Shown here piece after piece: positions 40,050 to 47,253 of a stretch of 64,000 nt of DNA. The DNA comes from Myxococcus sp. RHSTA-1-4 (GTDB lineage Bacteria > Myxococcota > Myxococcia > Myxococcales > Myxococcaceae), in contig NZ_JAIQDG010000040.1 in the NCBI RefSeq assembly GCF_020037125.1, positions 1-64,000 on the forward strand, written 5' to 3'. The position numbers and the translations under genes were made by a program. Position 1 is the stretch's first letter, and each line of letters begins with the position of its first letter. The notes below the pieces were generated by a model that made no database searches, was not told the DNA's origin, and saw only the letters and a program-made list of their open reading frames with translations.

Positions 40050-41444
40050 ATGAGTACCCTCCTGCTCGCCCTGCTCATCGCCGCCGCCCCGCCTCCGTCC
40101 GCACAGAAGGCGAAGGAGCTCGCCGCCCGCCGCGCCTGGGAGGAGCTGTACCTGGCCTTCGCCTCGGGTGACGTGGCGGGCGTACCGGAAGCCCAGCGCC
40201 GCACCATCTCCGGCGCGCTGCTCAAGGGGTGCGAGGCCCTGCTGGAGGAGGACGCGGTGATGGCGTACTCGCTGGGCGAGCGCGCCGTGGTGTTCGACGC
40301 GTCCGCCGGAGCCCTGAAGTGCCTTGCCCGCTCCGCTCGAAAGACGGACCAGCGGGCCGCCGCGGAGACCGCCCTGCGCAAGGGCCTGGAGCGGCACCCG
40401 AAGGACGGCGCCTTCGGGCTGGAGCTGGGCAGGCTGCTGCTGGAGGAGCAGGACGCCGCGGGAGCCCTGGCGGTGTTGGAGAAGGTACCGCCCCGCTCGC
40501 GCGAGGGCGCGGAGGCGAAGCGGCTGATTCAGCAGGCCCGCGCGAAGACGAGCGAGGAGGGCCAGGCGCGCAAGGAGGCCGAGCGCCTGGAGCGGTTGAT
40601 GAACGGCAAGCCCGGCACGGGGCGGCGCCCCTCGGGCACCGCCCTGGAGAACGCACCCGCGGTGGGCAACGGCGGCAAGGGCGACACGCGCGCGGTCAGC
40701 CTCACGTACGAGTCCGGCACGGACCCGCGGGGCATGCGCACGCGCTCCAACGGGCGCTTCGTCATCCGCTACTTCAACAACGAGCGCGACTTCAGCCAAC
40801 GCGCCGAGTACGAGGGCCGCATCGTCTCCGCGCTGGAGGAGGCATATGACTTCACCCGGAGCATGCTGGGCGAGGCCCGCGAGTCGCCGGTGGATGTCAT
40901 CCTGTACACACGGGAAGAGTTCAGCGTCCACTTCGGGGCGCGCCGGGCGCGCGGGGTGGCCGGGCTCTACTCGGACGACGCCATCCGCATCAATGACGCC
41001 GCGGAGCTGACCCAGCAGACCCGGGCCACCCTGGTGCACGAGTACGTGCACGCGGCGCTGGACGACTTCTGCGACAAGGGCGGCCACCTCCTGCCCACCT
41101 GGCTCAATGAGGGGCTGGCCGAGTACGTCGAGTGGCGCTACCTGGGTCGGGAGGAACCGGAGCGGGTCGTCCACAACGCCCTGGTGAGCGCGGCCAAGGC
41201 GAACCGGCTGCCCAAACTGGCGGAGATGGGGGACCAGACCCTCATGTACACCCGGAGCCCGGCCCTCTCGTACGGCACCTCCGGCGTGGCCGTGCGTGAG
41301 CTGGTGCGAAGGGGGGGGACGGGCCGGCTCCTCACCTTCACTCGCGAGCTGTGCCGGGGCAAACCCCTGGAGGAGGGACTGCGGGACCACTACGGGGAAA
41401 CCCTTGCGACGATGGACGAGGAGGTGCGGGCCGCCTTCCAGTAG
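40050..41444 (+). CDS. Secreted TPR/metallopeptidase (peptidase MA-like)
   Basis: This is a 464-residue protein with a short signal peptide (MSTLLLALLIAAAPPPSA). Residues ~20-180 are TPR-like helical repeats (AAETALRKGLERHPKDGAFG). The C-terminal half is a gluzincin domain with zinc motif LVHEYVHAALDDF (HExxH) and the third ligand in LNEGLAEYVEWRY, as in the DUF1570/peptidase MA group. It is probably periplasmic or secreted; the substrate is unknown. It may aid prey-protein digestion, but this is inference. It lies 60 nt after ilvA. Confidence 0.83.
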   Translation: MSTLLLALLIAAAPPPSAQKAKELAARRAWEELYLAFASGDVAGVPEAQRRTISGALLKGCEALLEEDAVMAYSLGERAVVFDASAGALKCLARSARKTDQRAAAETALRKGLERHPKDGAFGLELGRLLLEEQDAAGALAVLEKVPPRSREGAEAKRLIQQARAKTSEEGQARKEAERLERLMNGKPGTGRRPSGTALENAPAVGNGGKGDTRAVSLTYESGTDPRGMRTRSNGRFVIRYFNNERDFSQRAEYEGRIVSALEEAYDFTRSMLGEARESPVDVILYTREEFSVHFGARRARGVAGLYSDDAIRINDAAELTQQTRATLVHEYVHAALDDFCDKGGHLLPTWLNEGLAEYVEWRYLGREEPERVVHNALVSAAKANRLPKLAEMGDQTLMYTRSPALSYGTSGVAVRELVRRGGTGRLLTFTRELCRGKPLEEGLRDHYGETLATMDEEVRAAFQ

Positions 41445-41569: not shown

Positions 41570-44500
41570 ATGTCGGACACGCGCGCGGCGATGAGAGAAT
41601 TTCGCTTCCTGGACGAGAAGCGGAAGCTGGGAAGCCTGTCTCCCGTGGAGGAGGCTCGCTGGAGCGAGCTGCGCGGGCTCCTGGGCATCCAGGACGCTCC
41701 CGCCGTGCCGGACGCCTCCGCATGGCAGCAACAGGCGGCCCCCCAGGGCTACTACGGCGCCGATGGCCAGTGGTACGCCTACCCCGCCGGCTACGCCCAG
41801 CAGCCCCAGGGCTACTACGGCGCCGATGGCCAGTGGTACGCCTACCCCGCCGACTACGCCCAGCAGCCCCAGGGCTACTACGGCGCCGACGGCCAGTGGT
41901 ACGCCTACCCCGCCCAGCAGGCCTACGCGCAGCAGGGCTATGACCCCAATCAGGCCTACGCGCAGCAGGGCTACGACCCCAATCAGGCCTACGCGCAGCA
42001 GGGCTACGACCCGAACCAGGCCTACGCGCAGCAGGGTTACGACCCGAACCAGGCCTATGCGCAGCCGGGTTACGACCCGAGTCAGGCCTATGCGCAGCCG
42101 GGTTACGACCCGAACCAGGGCTACGCGGCCTGGCCGCAGCAGGGCTACGACCCGAATGCCCAGGGCTATGACCCGAACGCGCAGCAGGGCTATGACCCGA
42201 ATGCGCAGCAGGGTTATGACCCGAATGCGCAGGGCCAGGCCGGTGGCTGGCAGGCGGATCCGAATGCACAGCAGGCCTGGTCCGGCTACGCGCCGCAGGC
42301 CCCTGTCGAGCCCGACAACCTGAGCCTCACCGCGGACGAGATCGACATCCCCGCGCTGAGCGAGCCCGCGCCCTGGATGACCCCTGGCGCCGCCGAGACG
42401 GCTGGCGCTCCCGCCGCCGAGCAGGAGTCGCTGGACGCACAGCAGGAGCCGGGCACCGAGGCCACGTCCACCTCCTCTGAGGACGTGCTCGAGGTGATGG
42501 AGTCGGACGTCGCGGTGGACACCACTCCGGACCCGTCCGCTTCGTTCGCGGACGTCACCGCCGACCTTGGGGAGCAGGGTGCGCAGGCGCCGGAGACCGA
42601 GCCGGGCGCGATGGTCGCGGAGGATGACTTCTCGTCCGTGACGGCCTCTGAGCCCCAGGTCCCGGCCGCCTCCGAGCCCGAGTCCTCGCTGGAGTCTTCA
42701 TTCGCCGACCTGTCGATGGAGGTCGAGTCGGCGCCGGACACTTCCGCCGAGGCGCCCGTTGCCGCGGCGGCGCCGTCCGATGAGGCGGAGTTCGCCTCCG
42801 CCGAGCTGGAGGTCCCCTCCTCCGAGGTCGAGCTGGTCGACGCGACGGCCGAAAGCGAGCCGGTGCTGGCCGAGGAACGCTCGCCCGCGCCCATGGACGA
42901 AGCCTGGGCGTCCGCCCCGCTCGCCGTGGAGCCGATGGAGCCTTCGGAGGCGGAGAGTGCCGACGCGAGTGACATCATCGACGTCGCCGCGCTGACTCCC
43001 GCCGACCCGGCCGCTGAGTCGGACACGCAGCCCTCGGTGCTGGCGCTCGACGCCTCCGACATGCTCGAGGCCGCATCCCCGGACGAGGCGACTCCGTCCG
43101 CGGAGGTCTCGTCCAACGCCTGGGACCTGGGCACTCCTGCCTCCAGCGAATCGGCTGCGACCGAGTCCCAGGGCGATTCGACGGAGTTCTCGCTCGACGC
43201 CTCCGAGGCGCATTCCTTCGAAACGCAGTCCGCCTCGGAGGAGATTGCCCTCGACGCGTCCGACATGAGCGACGCGTCCTCCTTCGAAGCGCAGGCCGGC
43301 TCGGCGGAAATCGCGCTCGAGGCGTCCGACGTGAGCATGGAGCCCGCTGACGACGTCCAGGCGGCCGGCGCGGAGGAGAGCGTTCCCACGTTCGAGCTGA
43401 ACGCGTCCGAAGCGACGGACTTCGCCGCGGCGGAGGCTCCGCTGTCGGCGCAGGGCGAGACTTCCGCGGAGGAGCCGCCGCTCGACGTCATGGACATCGA
43501 GTCGGCCCCGGAGAGCACGGAGCCGCCGACCTTCGACGTGGCCGACCTCGGCTCCGAGATGGAGCCCGAAGCCCCCATGGCGTCCGCCGGGTCTCCGTTC
43601 GAGAACCCGGATGAGACCTCGCTCGAGCTCCGCTCGGTGCAGGTGGGACCGGACCTCCAGGCCGATACCGTCGAGCTCGCCGGGACGCCGGCGCCGGCGT
43701 CCCCCGCGGCCCATGCGTTCGCGGGCACCCCGACCGCGGAGGAGATGTTCGACCTGAGCGGCAATCCCGAGGAGGCCGTGCCGCTCGCCGCCGCGGGAGA
43801 GTTCGTCGATTACGGCCGCTTCGCGAGCCCGGGCGAGCGCGGCATGGCGCTCTCGGGTCAGGAGCCGTCGTCCAGCGCGGGTTGGGGCTCGGAGTCGACC
43901 GACGCCGTGCCGCTCATGAGCGAGGAGCAGGCCGCCAGCGCCGATTGGAGCGCGGAATCGGCCGACGCCGTGCCGCTCGCGAGCAACGCCGAGTTCGCCG
44001 CGGAGATGGGCACGTCCGGTGCTTCGTGGGGTGATGCGTCCACGGAGGCGTCCGGCTCCACCGAGCAGCCCGAGTGGTCCACGCCTGCCGAAGAGGCCCC
44101 CATCGAGCTGCAGCCCGAGTGGGCCTCGGCCTCCGAGCCCTCCGACCTGACCGCGAATGCGGCGGCTCCTTCCGAGACCGCGCCCGCGGCGGCGGAGCTC
44201 GAGGCCGGGTGGGTCACGCCCGGCGAAGAGGTCTCCACGGAAGCACTTGCCACCGAGTGGGCTCCGCCGGCCGGCGAGGCAGCCGCCCCTGGTGCCTTCG
44301 CGGCTGAGTGGGCCGCGTCGGCCGGTGAGGCGGCGGCGACCAGCGCGACTCCTTCCGAGTGGGGGACGGCCGCCGAAGAGGCAGCGGCCGTCGAACTCCA
44401 GGCCGAGTGGGCCACGCCCATCGAAGAGGGCTCTCCCGAGGCCGCACAGGCCGAGTGGGCCGCTCCCACTGGTGAGGCGACTCCTGATGCCGCGCAGCCC

Positions 44501-47143
44501 GAGTGGGCGACGCCCACCGGTGAAGCGGAAACCGCGGCGCAGCCCGAGTGGGCCACGCCTGTCGAGGAGGCCGCACCGGAGGCTGCGCAGGCTGAGTGGG
44601 CCACGCCTGTCGAGGAGGTTGCTCCGGAGGCGGCACAGGCCGAGTGGGCCACGCCTGTCGAGGAGGTTGCTCCGGAGGCGACACAGGCCGAGTGGGCCAC
44701 CCCGGCCGCGCAGGACGCATCCCAGGCTGCCCAGACCGGGTGGACCGCGCCGGTAGAGGCCGCGCCCGAGAGCGTGCCGTCCGAGTGGGCCACCTCGTCC
44801 GCCGAAGAGGCCGCGCCCGTCGAGCTCCAGGCCGAGTGGGCCACGCCCGAGACCGACGCCGCCCAGGCGCCGTGGACGGCAGCTGCCACCGAGGCCGCTC
44901 AGCCGGAGTGGGCCACGCCCGCCGAAGAGGCCGCGCCCGAGGCTGCCCAGGCCGAGTGGTCCGCCACCACCGAGGTCGAGCCCGGGGCTGTCCAGGCCGA
45001 GTGGTCCGCCACCACCGAGGTCGAGCCCGAGGCCACCCAGCCGGAGTGGGCCACGCCCGCCGAAGAGGTCGCGCCCGAGGCTGTCCAGGCTGAGTGGTCC
45101 GCCACCACCGAGGCCGAGCCCGAGGCTGCCCAGGCTGAGTGGTCCACCACCGAAGTCGCTTCCGAGACATCCCAGACCGAGTGGTCCGCCACCGCCGAGG
45201 TTGCTTCCGAGACCGCCCAGGCTGAGTGGTCCACCACCGAAGTCGCTTCTGAGGCTGTCCAGGCCGAGTGGTCCTCCTCCGCCGAGGGAGCTTCCGAGAC
45301 TGCCCAGGCTGAGTGGTCCGCCACCACCGAAGTCTCTTCCGAGACTGCCCAGGCTGAGTGGTCCGCCACCACCGAAGCCGCTTCCGAGACTGCCCAGGCT
45401 GAATGGTCCGCCGATACCGAAGTCGCTTCCGACGCCGTGCAGGCCGAGTGGTCCGCACCCGCGACCGAGGCGCCCGCGGCCGCGCAGCCGGAGTGGACGG
45501 CCGCCGCTGAAATCGAGCCCGAGGCCGTCCAGGCCGAATGGGCGACCTCCGCTGAAGCGTCCGCGGAGGCCACCCAGCCTGAGTGGGCCGCGCCCGCGCA
45601 GACGGACTGGTCCGCCCCCGCCGCTGACTCGGCGCCTGACGCCGCGTGGGGTGCACCCACCGGAGAAATCGCCGCAACGTCCGCGCAGACGGACTGGTCC
45701 GCCCCCACTGCCGAGGCGGCACCCGACGCCGCGTGGGCCGCACCTGCCGCCGAAGCAACTCCCGAGGCCGAGTGGGCCTCGCCCGTAGAGGAGCTCGCTC
45801 CCGACGCCGTGCAGGCCGAGTGGTCCACCATCACGACCGGGGCGCCCGAGGCCACGCAGCCCGAGTGGGCAACGCCCGCGACCGACGCCGCTCCCCAGGC
45901 CGAGTGGACGGGTGCCACCACCGAGGCCCAGCCCGAGTGGGCCTCGCCCGTCGAGGAACTCGCTCCCGACGCCGTCCAGGCGGAGTGGGCCACGCCCACG
46001 GGCGAAGCCGCCGCTCAGCCCGAGTGGTCCTCCACCGCCGCGGCCCAGCCCGGCTCCGACTGGAACACTCCCGCCACGGACACGGCGTCGTCCGCATGGG
46101 CCTCCGTCGAGACGCAGCCCGCGTCCCAGTGGGAGTCCGCTCCGGCCGAAGAGGCCCCCGTCGAGCTCCAGCCCGAGTGGGTGACGCCGGAAGCCGAGGC
46201 CGCTCCCGAGTGGAGCGCGCAGCAGCCCGCCGCCGCCACGCCGGAGTGGAGCGAGGCCCCCGTCGAGGAAGTCTCCCTGGCGGACACGTCCACTCCCGCC
46301 GAGGGCGTCCAGGCCGAGTGGAGCGACACGCCCGTGGACATCGAGCCCATGCTCGAGGCCACGCCCGCGGAGCCGGAGCCTTCGTGGAGCGACACGCCAG
46401 CGCAGGCCACCGCCTCGCGCTTCGCCGCGCCGTCCGAGTCGGTGCCCTGGGAGCAGGAGCCCGAGCCCGAGGCTCCGGCCTGGCGGTCCGGCGGCGACAG
46501 CCCCTTCGGCGCCCAGGGCCACCACCTCTCCGAGCCCGAAGCCGACATCGACGTCAACCTCGACGCCCCGCTGCCCTCCCCCATCGAGGAGGAGGTCGCG
46601 GTGGAGCTCGAGCAGGAGATCGCCGAAATCGAGCTCGAGGAGGAGTCCGTGGAGCCGCCTCCGGCGCCCCGCCCTCCGCCTCCGCCCGCGCCGCAGGCGT
46701 CCAACCGCGTCGCAGCCTCGCGTGAGCCGCTCTTCCCCCAGCCGGCCGTGGCGGACACGGCACCCGTCACATCCTTCGTGGAGGGCGAGCACCGCGTCAT
46801 CATCCACACCGTCGAGGGCCAGGTGAAGCGCGGCACCATCCGCGACGCCGACCTGCTCGACGAGGTCATCTCGCTGGAGCAGCAGAGCGGCTTCGCCCCC
46901 GAGCAGATTCCCGGCAAGCGCGTGAAGGCCATCTTCTTCATGCTCGGCGCCGGCGTGCGTCAGCCGCAGGCGGAGGGCCAGAAGATCCGCGTCACCTTCA
47001 ACGACGGCCGTCAGGTCGCGGGCTTCTCGCGGGACTTCAAGGGCAGCACGCCGGGCTTCTTCGTCATCCCCGCCGACCAGCGCACCAACACCGCCCGCAT
47101 CTTCATCTACCGCTCCAGCGTGCAGGCGGTGGCGGAAGGCTGA
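41570..47143 (+). CDS. Giant low-complexity repeat protein (1,857 aa) with short folded ends
   Basis: Residues 1-45 form a compact charged segment (REFRFLDEKRKLGSLSPVEE). Then come Tyr/Gln/Gly-rich prion-like repeats: three 21-residue units (YYGADGQWYAYPA core), about six 11-residue units (AYAQQGYDPNQ) and shorter GYDPNAQ units, to ~residue 230. The next ~590 residues are Ser/Ala/Glu/Asp-rich and acidic. About fifty 11-16-residue units of QAEWATPVEE type then run from ~820 to ~1610. The C-terminal ~120 residues (from HRVIIHTVEGQVKRG) look like a folded beta-rich domain. There is no signal peptide or membrane segment. Such a polymer could form condensates or act as a cytoplasmic scaffold. I cannot name the family. 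Confidence 0.85.
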   Translation: MSDTRAAMREFRFLDEKRKLGSLSPVEEARWSELRGLLGIQDAPAVPDASAWQQQAAPQGYYGADGQWYAYPAGYAQQPQGYYGADGQWYAYPADYAQQPQGYYGADGQWYAYPAQQAYAQQGYDPNQAYAQQGYDPNQAYAQQGYDPNQAYAQQGYDPNQAYAQPGYDPSQAYAQPGYDPNQGYAAWPQQGYDPNAQGYDPNAQQGYDPNAQQGYDPNAQGQAGGWQADPNAQQAWSGYAPQAPVEPDNLSLTADEIDIPALSEPAPWMTPGAAETAGAPAAEQESLDAQQEPGTEATSTSSEDVLEVMESDVAVDTTPDPSASFADVTADLGEQGAQAPETEPGAMVAEDDFSSVTASEPQVPAASEPESSLESSFADLSMEVESAPDTSAEAPVAAAAPSDEAEFASAELEVPSSEVELVDATAESEPVLAEERSPAPMDEAWASAPLAVEPMEPSEAESADASDIIDVAALTPADPAAESDTQPSVLALDASDMLEAASPDEATPSAEVSSNAWDLGTPASSESAATESQGDSTEFSLDASEAHSFETQSASEEIALDASDMSDASSFEAQAGSAEIALEASDVSMEPADDVQAAGAEESVPTFELNASEATDFAAAEAPLSAQGETSAEEPPLDVMDIESAPESTEPPTFDVADLGSEMEPEAPMASAGSPFENPDETSLELRSVQVGPDLQADTVELAGTPAPASPAAHAFAGTPTAEEMFDLSGNPEEAVPLAAAGEFVDYGRFASPGERGMALSGQEPSSSAGWGSESTDAVPLMSEEQAASADWSAESADAVPLASNAEFAAEMGTSGASWGDASTEASGSTEQPEWSTPAEEAPIELQPEWASASEPSDLTANAAAPSETAPAAAELEAGWVTPGEEVSTEALATEWAPPAGEAAAPGAFAAEWAASAGEAAATSATPSEWGTAAEEAAAVELQAEWATPIEEGSPEAAQAEWAAPTGEATPDAAQPEWATPTGEAETAAQPEWATPVEEAAPEAAQAEWATPVEEVAPEAAQAEWATPVEEVAPEATQAEWATPAAQDASQAAQTGWTAPVEAAPESVPSEWATSSAEEAAPVELQAEWATPETDAAQAPWTAAATEAAQPEWATPAEEAAPEAAQAEWSATTEVEPGAVQAEWSATTEVEPEATQPEWATPAEEVAPEAVQAEWSATTEAEPEAAQAEWSTTEVASETSQTEWSATAEVASETAQAEWSTTEVASEAVQAEWSSSAEGASETAQAEWSATTEVSSETAQAEWSATTEAASETAQAEWSADTEVASDAVQAEWSAPATEAPAAAQPEWTAAAEIEPEAVQAEWATSAEASAEATQPEWAAPAQTDWSAPAADSAPDAAWGAPTGEIAATSAQTDWSAPTAEAAPDAAWAAPAAEATPEAEWASPVEELAPDAVQAEWSTITTGAPEATQPEWATPATDAAPQAEWTGATTEAQPEWASPVEELAPDAVQAEWATPTGEAAAQPEWSSTAAAQPGSDWNTPATDTASSAWASVETQPASQWESAPAEEAPVELQPEWVTPEAEAAPEWSAQQPAAATPEWSEAPVEEVSLADTSTPAEGVQAEWSDTPVDIEPMLEATPAEPEPSWSDTPAQATASRFAAPSESVPWEQEPEPEAPAWRSGGDSPFGAQGHHLSEPEADIDVNLDAPLPSPIEEEVAVELEQEIAEIELEEESVEPPPAPRPPPPPAPQASNRVAASREPLFPQPAVADTAPVTSFVEGEHRVIIHTVEGQVKRGTIRDADLLDEVISLEQQSGFAPEQIPGKRVKAIFFMLGAGVRQPQAEGQKIRVTFNDGRQVAGFSRDFKGSTPGFFVIPADQRTNTARIFIYRSSVQAVAEG
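41740..42240 (+). repeat. In-frame tandem repeats, 63-nt and 33-nt units
   Basis: Three near-identical 63-nt units (41742-41915) encode the GYYGADGQWYAYP block. About six 33-nt units (AYAQQGYDPNQ) run to 42120, then shorter GYDPNAQ units. High nucleotide identity between units suggests recent slippage or unequal exchange, so length may vary between strains. Confidence 0.85.
44040..46330 (+). repeat. About fifty degenerate in-frame repeats with E-W core
   Basis: Units of 33-48 nt encode (A/E)-x-(Q/P)-(A/P)-E-W-(A/S)-(T/A)-(P/T)-x-E-E. Some neighbours are nearly identical, for example around 44580-44700 and 44950-45100, while others have drifted. The invariant tryptophan, spaced every 11-16 residues in an acidic chain, is a sticker-and-spacer arrangement. 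Confidence 0.8.
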
Positions 47144-47192
47144 GGCACAACCCGGGCGGGGGGCGCCCACGTCGCTCCCCCCGCAAGTGAAA

Positions 47193-47224
47193 AAGGGGCC
47201 CCCCACCACCGTGGGAGGCCCCTT
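47193..47224. terminator. Bidirectional terminator between repeat-protein and yceI-like genes
   Basis: AAGGGGCCCCCCAC (47193-47206) pairs with GTGGGAGGCCCCTT (47211-47224) in 13 of 14 positions around a 4-nt loop, with A-rich sequence on the left (GTGAAAAAG) giving a U-run on the minus strand and CCTTCGTCATT on the right. It lies between two convergent stop codons. Confidence 0.8.
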
Positions 47225-47253
47225 CGTCATTCAGCGTCAGCCGTGGCTTCGGA

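Follow-up and report, generated by a model that had tools for sequence, protein, structure and literature searches.

A candidate multivalent scaffold in Myxococcus: a DUF6982 protein with a conserved, regularly spaced tryptophan array on an acidic chain

Results and Discussion

The window analyzed here, comprising the first 64,000 nucleotides of contig NZ_JAIQDG010000040.1 of Myxococcus sp. RHSTA-1-4 (assembly GCF_020037125.1; 11.24 Mb in 134 contigs), contains a gene for a 1,857-residue protein that joins an N-terminal helical hairpin, aromatic repeats, a long acidic, Trp-studded and predicted intrinsically disordered region (IDR), and a C-terminal DUF6982 domain (table 1). We consider it about evenly balanced whether this protein acts as a cytoplasmic multivalent scaffold, with Trp stickers carried on an expanded acidic chain, probably forming or joining a condensate or assembly. 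The open reading frame (ORF) is a genuine gene: its translation is uninterrupted over all 1,857 codons, as the initial annotation of this DNA had it, and a plausible ribosome-binding site, AAGGTGA, ends 3 nt before the ATG (its AAGG ends 6 nt before the start). A 1,510-residue open frame on the opposite strand (42698-47230, -) overlaps the gene and is most likely a by-product of high GC content and repeats, because the domain and ortholog evidence sits on the + strand.

Tryptophans of the Acidic Chain Are Regularly Spaced and Appear Strongly Selected

The chain between the ends (residues 251–1730, ~1,480 residues) contains 241 Glu and 72 Asp, 9 Arg and no Lys, 60 Trp and a single Tyr, with a net charge of about -0.2 per residue (-0.18 to -0.22 across residues 251–1735, where Pro makes up 9.6–20.0%). 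It is predicted to be disordered from this composition and from low pLDDT (predicted local distance difference test) in AlphaFold2 models, which covered residues 1–250 and 1560–1857. Most of the 68 Trp of the protein follow an acidic residue (41 EW and 4 DW), so the initial annotation, which counted about fifty regularly spaced Glu-Trp pairs, was slightly high in number and right about spacing: the 52 Trp within residues 880–1640 have a mean gap of 14.8 residues with a standard deviation of 2.7, whereas random placement gave a mean standard deviation of 13.5 and none below 8.9 in 10,000 draws, under a null that takes no account of tandem duplication. The sequence context is equally regular; Trp occupies position x in 32/32 Q[AP]E-x contexts of residues 841–1640, and is found in 23/23 instances of a second context, likewise defined without Trp, and in 20/21 instances of a third, looser one. 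At the DNA level the array repeats match each other at 72–79% (Tandem Repeats Finder, TRF), which does not bear out the claim that they are near-identical. A search of the host genome with the array returned three matches, all inside the same ORF (150 of 739 candidates scored).

Because tandem duplication alone could produce regular gaps, selection on Trp was tested separately, using 17 pairs of close orthologs whose chains were aligned with identity scoring. Of 756 Trp aligned in the chain, 754 were conserved, as were 183 of 191 Phe, followed by Gln (94%) and Glu (92%), while Ala (3678/4483, 82%), Ser (1287/1713, 75%), and Thr (1078/1543, 70%) were retained less often. In the same alignments, 755 of 757 in-frame TGG triplets were kept, but the two alternative reading frames retained 363 of 467 and 34 of 71. 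Identity at the three codon positions of the chain (0.893/0.937/0.786) shows that purifying selection acts on it, and these alignments indicate that the Trp of the array are under strong selection. We reject neutral slippage as the source of the Trp pattern on the strength of the out-of-frame control, within the limits of that control discussed below.

Chain length and repeat number, by the same kind of sequence comparison, drift between close species while the ends stay identical or nearly so. The loci L050 and L051 (loci, genomes, contigs, and families carry our L, G, C, and f handles) differ by 110 gapped residues and L050 and L053 by 212, and in both pairs the N- and C-terminal modules are 100% identical; L111 and L112 differ by 301 gapped residues, with modules 100% (N) and 98% (C) identical. 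The length variation that had been expected between strains is thus borne out between close species. Several draft contigs of related species start within a few hundred bases of DUF6982 (e.g., L133, L144, L145, and L150), as expected if the repeats break assemblies.

Table 1. Features of the scaffold gene and its product, in window coordinates
Feature	Position	Strand	Description
ORF	41570..47143	+	1,857 aa; order: hairpin, aromatic repeats, acidic Trp-studded IDR, DUF6982
N-terminal helical hairpin	41570..41695	+	residues 1-42; helices 2-20 and 25-38 (AlphaFold2)
Three 21-residue aromatic units (PQGYYGADGQWYAYP...)	41741..41914	+	predicted beta-hairpins, residues ~58-115
QGYDPN repeat array	41918..42232	+	Tyr/Gln-rich, prion-like composition (TRF, composition)
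Trp-poor acidic segment	42320..43849	+	residues 251-760, with 3 Trp; predicted disordered; charge of -0.22 per residue (net)
Short conserved motif, first copy (...AVPLAAAGEFV...)	43766..43813	+	in acidic chain
Trp-sticker array, first to last Trp	43883..46483	+	residues 772-1638; 57 Trp
Short conserved motif, second copy (...AVPLASNAEFA...)	43958..44005	+	in acidic chain
DUF6982 (PF22478)	46787..47131	+	two tandem homologous barrels, predicted Sm-like

The Trp Array Is a Clade-Limited Elaboration of a Widespread Family

DUF6982 is present in 155 of 195 sampled Myxococcota genomes (128 of the 149 with completeness of at least 90% and contamination of at most 5%) and in 0 of 14 control genomes. 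It is single-copy in 150 of the 155, and the host genome has one occurrence; G062, G157, G165, G166, and G167 hold two or three copies. A protein search with the C-terminal region matched 54 of the 61 genomes in the set of relatives, the host included. The fetched stretches around 53 of 60 ortholog loci retain a rhomboid-like gene downstream, on the opposite strand in 52, which argues that the loci are mostly vertical orthologs. Orthologs in other families of the phylum carry, by eye, a helical-looking N-terminus and a low-complexity chain ahead of DUF6982, and most orthologs have a chain of at least hundreds of residues regardless of Trp content. Other arrangements were also seen in other families of the phylum: DUF6982 stands nearly alone in L176 and L177 (frames of 145–146 codons) and behind an FHA domain in L173 (Pfam) and L178 (by eye), whereas the window protein has a long, Trp-studded IDR. 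In a second DUF6982 protein of one genome (L189, G157:C321), a long N-terminal stretch that looks coiled-coil-like by eye replaces the Pro/Ala-rich chain.

Defining a regular run as at least seven Trp with gaps of at most 22 residues, we found one in 44 of 60 loci: 23 in the same genus (the window protein included), 14 in other genera of the family, and 7 in three other families. These counts include incomplete frames, since 48 of 61 loci pass our start-and-completeness rule (L063, L066, L067, L069, L070, L072–L074, L078, and L125–L128 fail); we cut L067, L125, L126, and L127 back to a start manually, the other failing loci were taken as open frames, and L074, with a chain below 100 residues, was excluded. 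P-values for the 60 loci rest on a null not conditioned on the 22-residue limit, and 14 loci were redone with a truncated null.

The repeat unit that carries the Trp differs between lineages. The genus and its near relatives have an EWATP/EWSATTE-like unit. The f5 loci L067 and L126 (genomes of ~5 Mb) have AWDPNAQPYDPN, spaced by 15 and once by 16, and the f5 loci L066 and L070 have a WDPN unit with a mean gap of 12.8–12.9. In the f7 locus L078 the contexts are of low-repeat ADPWSASP/SDEWQEIK type (flank identity 0.22), with a mean gap of 14.2 (p 0.0017, truncated null), and L114, from the same family as the window protein, combines a flank identity of 0.17 with regular gaps (p 0.0002, truncated null). 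L128 has 14 chain Trp on a SWDAP unit, yet no qualifying run under the 22-residue limit. These comparisons indicate that a Trp spacing of ~12–16 residues recurs on different repeat units across lineages, and that the family core consists of the ends and the acidic chain, with the Trp array as a strong but clade-limited elaboration.

Both Ends Are Predicted to Fold

DUF6982 is the one domain that Pfam matches in the protein at E up to 1 (residues 1740–1854, E 1.8e-27, 96.5 bits against a cut-off of 24.5, profile positions 2–130 of 134), and its model has ten strands at pLDDT 92–98 in 10-residue blocks and, short turns aside, consists wholly of beta structure, in agreement with the folded C-terminal domain proposed at the outset. 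The two halves align significantly with each other (hhalign E 3.6e-6 local, 4.4e-5 global), identifying the domain as an internal duplication. Structure comparison, which the initial annotation had suggested for this region, brought out a likeness to Hfq and Lsm proteins: most of the 50 VIA matches listed for the first half are Hfq or Lsm (Z 4.3–5.1; 3hfo_A at Z 5.1 with an rmsd of 2.0 over 59 residues), the top one listed is YaeO (Z 5.9), and Foldseek returned several Lsm/Sm/Hfq chains at probability 0.98–1.00; however, no Foldseek E fell below 0.036, reached by an Spt5 KOW pair. With no Z as high as 8 and Foldseek E values no better than this, predicted Sm-like barrels are a reasoned label and not proof. 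A sequence search for solved-structure relatives of the C-terminal domain found none at E up to 10. A PilZ identity of DUF6982, or binding of cyclic di-GMP (c-di-GMP) by the domain itself, was rejected, as Pfam gives no PilZ match to the protein at E up to 1; PilZ was also absent among the 50 VIA matches listed, which does not by itself exclude it. Pfam lists the function of DUF6982 as unknown, and a literature search that left subscription papers outside its coverage found no paper mentioning it.

At the other end, the hairpin is modeled at pLDDT 91–97 across residues 1–40, and residues 1–42 have a mean column identity of 68% over 20 aligned sequences. Foldseek found nothing significant for the N-terminal model (best E 1.2; the nearest short hairpin is YnzC, 3bhp, at E 2.5–3.1). 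Within the host genome, with 150 of 467 candidates scored, the hairpin module has two weak matches: the start of the PilZ-domain protein L130:1480-2376 (G000:C41), at E 0.012, and an 18-position site, at E 0.054. The N-terminal segment of this PilZ-domain protein looks helical and resembles the hairpin, which is perhaps a small module common to both proteins. No hydrophobic export or transmembrane segment was found by a 19-residue Kyte–Doolittle scan (highest mean 0.61); the lack of an export signal noted initially thus stands, and we take the protein to be probably cytoplasmic.

The tandem, Tyr/Gln/Gly-rich N-terminal region that follows the hairpin was also correctly recognized. Its aromatic units derive from a 63-bp repeat (2.8 copies, 98% match), and AlphaFold2 models the GYYGADGQWYAYP units as small beta-hairpins with moderate confidence (strands 60–62/68–70, 81–83/89–91, and 102–104/110–112). 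The corresponding pattern, [YW]x(1-4)DGxWY, occurs in 41 of 61 loci and is a single copy in L062, L064, L122, L123, and L124. The QGYDPN region is built of 33-bp (6.4 copies, 93% match) and 24-bp (4.2 copies) units, and residues 46–250 contain 21.5% Gln, 15.6% Tyr, 12.2% Gly, and 5.4% Asn. The aromatic repeats are reminiscent of the OCRE domain of RBM5, but an OCRE profile did not match residues 1–250 at E up to 10. A sub-threshold OCRE match (18.4 bits, E 0.0022, cut-off 24.7) does lie ahead of DUF6982 in the f6 ortholog L191:7697-8494, a curious parallel to eukaryotic OCRE, which, according to extracts of the source, reads Sm-protein tails by binding poly-Pro (PMC5127646). We dropped a coupling of the two ends through binding of the aromatic units to the poly-Pro tract that precedes DUF6982, because the two do not covary: of the orthologs that have aromatic units, 33 of 41 contain Pro-Pro-Pro, and of those that lack them, 16 of 20 do.

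A Short Chain Motif Recurs in an MshEN Protein

One motif, VPLAS-x-ADF[LIV]-like (hereafter LAS-x-ADF), is conspicuous in a chain that otherwise aligns poorly. The pattern [MVLIF][PEQ]L[AST][ASTG]x[AGSWV][DE][FL][LIVA] occurs in 31 of 61 loci, twice in the window protein, a count that misses variants such as VPLAAANEFL of Myxococcus xanthus-like loci; VPLTSASDYL and PMELSDSAADFLEM are found at further loci. Two similar patterns appear 0.00–0.03 times per shuffled chain, and the motif is absent from f5, f7, and f8 loci by the patterns used. When a model of the family motif alone was run against the host genome (150/180 and 150/169 candidates scored), the best match besides the two window copies, which belong to the model by construction, was an ORF on G000:C57 (E 0.0143–0.0165); a second site in that ORF reached E 1.48–2.47, and four partial matches elsewhere rank between the two (E 0.37–0.66). 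A model including both proteins, in which C57 scores high by construction, gave four strong sites and a next-best E of 0.9 (139/139 scored).

The C57 ORF (L202:2795-7765) encodes a protein of 1,656 residues that combines an MshEN domain (PF05157, E 7.5e-15) with a long Pro-rich low-complexity chain, and adjoins a class II ribonucleotide reductase gene. Its two copies of [MVLIF][PEQ]LA[ST]x[AW][DE]F[LIV] persist in 24 of 25 same-genus loci, its own included, and this retention is the stronger evidence that they matter. MshEN domains are described in extracts of the source as a class of c-di-GMP receptor (PMC5013675), making a link between the putative scaffold and c-di-GMP a lead and not a result.

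Comparison with Known Scaffolds

The protein has the layout of a sticker-and-spacer scaffold, with regular, conserved aromatic stickers in predicted disordered sequence. In the Rubisco scaffolds EPYC1 and CsoS2, short motifs likewise repeat at even intervals over a long disordered chain, there with a known client; the likeness is one of chain layout. PopZ, the polar condensate scaffold of Caulobacter, resembles the window protein in outline, in tying an acidic, Pro-rich, expanded IDR to an associating domain; it is not known to have a Trp array. The oligomerization domain of PopZ is helical, whereas the C-terminal domain of the window protein is all beta, and the window protein is not a member of the PopZ family. 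According to extracts of PMC9512792, the acidic Pro-rich IDR of PopZ (-0.28 charge per residue) balances its oligomerizing domain, and PopZ offers a precedent for a repulsive IDR that tunes a condensate made by another domain. Extracts of PMC10307791 describe PomY, a cytoplasmic myxobacterial IDR protein with coiled-coil and HEAT parts and an isoelectric point of 9.3, as forming condensates for which the coiled coil is required and sufficient in vitro. We saw no domain shared by PomY and the window protein; PomY shows that the part driving condensation of a myxobacterial protein need not be its IDR. Among the results listed, our literature search on Myxococcus condensates and on prion-like, disordered, Trp-rich, or acidic-repeat proteins returned nothing on this protein.

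Weighing a Multivalent Scaffold against the Alternatives

We propose that the hairpin and the double Sm-like DUF6982 end would anchor or oligomerize the protein, and that the acidic chain, held expanded by its charge, would expose dozens of regularly spaced Trp stickers. These would make many weak contacts with one or more partner proteins, and perhaps with each other. In this way the protein would collect clients and would probably form, or become part of, a condensate or large assembly, and the two LAS-x-ADF motifs would dock a second, specific partner that the large MshEN protein would also bind. Condensation of such a scaffold is plausible. The initial annotation saw in the protein a classic design for phase separation; the conserved, regular stickers and the scaffold-like layout agree with that description, whereas a plain homotypic phase separator does not fit a charge of about -0.2 per residue.

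Several observations weigh against this proposal. Strong, uniform negative charge disfavors self-association of the chain, and with no Lys and only 9 Arg homotypic coacervation should be opposed; the prion-like part spans only ~200 residues and is partly predicted beta-hairpin. In a 298-residue model the chain beside DUF6982 has low pLDDT, no secondary structure, and no sign of ordered docking, within a model that covers intramolecular contacts only. A regular Trp run is lacking in 16 of 60 loci, some of them incomplete; L068 has one chain Trp, L125 has two with 40 irregularly placed Phe (p 0.30), and spacing is weakly regular in L077 (p 0.054) and L117 (p 0.027; both truncated null). As part of the family lacks the array, its core function cannot depend on it. 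The Trp-retention contrast itself comes from 17 pairs that share members and are hence nonindependent, and has as its control the out-of-frame TGG of the same alignments, with no other disordered protein; such triplets take in degenerate third positions, so that ordinary constraint on the protein explains some of the contrast. Trp is, moreover, conserved in most proteins. Docking of the Trp motifs on the protein's own DUF6982 was set aside on the 298-residue model, which is weak evidence.

The strongest alternative, which we regard as possible though on balance unlikely, is a client-docking string without condensation, in which each Trp motif is a specific low-affinity ligand of one folded partner, tens of copies of which would decorate the protein, as in EPYC1 or CsoS2, and copy number sets stoichiometry. 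Specific docking on the array fits nearly as well as condensation: it would account for the near-absolute retention of Trp and the conservation of Gln and Glu in the chain, the high negative charge would hold the chain open, and some lineages have uniform repeat units (flank identity is 0.45 for L057 and 0.72 for L067), which favors a client. However, the flanks vary between lineages (EWATP, AWDPN, ADPWS) and are near random in L114 and L077 (0.14 in the latter), and such flanks suit generic stickers better than one specific ligand.

We find it improbable that the protein scaffolds an RNA-linked granule, with the Sm-like barrels binding RNA or an RNA-binding complex that the IDR organizes. LSm-domain proteins do occur in P-bodies, the first barrel resembles Hfq and Lsm as described above, and a DbpA-type DEAD-box helicase is encoded five genes upstream; yet structural scores of this size are typical of common arrangements, SH3-like barrels are often protein binders rather than RNA binders, the acidic chain should repel RNA, and the helicase has no match in the stretches fetched around the distant loci L063–L078. 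Of similarly low probability is an entropic spacer or brush, in which the chain sets only the end-to-end distance and the repeats are slippage by-products. Drift in length and repeat number, and a long chain in most orthologs whatever their Trp content, are what such a spacer would show, but the frame-dependent retention of TGG and the purifying selection seen across codon positions speak against it. A self-templating prion or amyloid driven by the N-terminus is very improbable despite its content of Gln, Tyr, Gly, and Asn, as this region is a small part of the protein, its best-conserved units are predicted beta-hairpins, and five loci retain only one of them.

A multivalent scaffold remains our preferred reading; flanks that vary between lineages favor generic stickers, and uniform units within a lineage favor a client. 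The neighboring upstream gene (40050-41444, +), which encodes a TPR and peptidase-MA-like protein with a signal-peptide-like start by eye and is syntenic in near families, was considered as a partner and dropped: adjacency and homologs are patchy beyond near families, and the product, given its N-terminus, is probably exported.

Implications for Myxobacterial Cell Biology

Sticker-and-spacer scaffolds are a known kind; the protein, the family to which it belongs, and the conserved metric of its Trp look new. A further-reaching and rather unlikely reading is that the protein builds an undescribed core myxobacterial membraneless assembly, in which sticker number drifts while the selected Trp and their ~15-residue spacing are rebuilt on unrelated units in separate lineages, and in which the LAS-x-ADF motif common to the MshEN protein would let a c-di-GMP-type sensor and the scaffold meet on one partner. 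If our proposal is true, the family would let sticker-and-spacer proteins be studied as a natural experiment that spans a phylum, in which lineages with unalignable chains may still be compared by spacing and sticker type, in a group with good genetics (M. xanthus). It would also give a testable role and fold to DUF6982, a domain kept in most of the Myxococcota genomes sampled.

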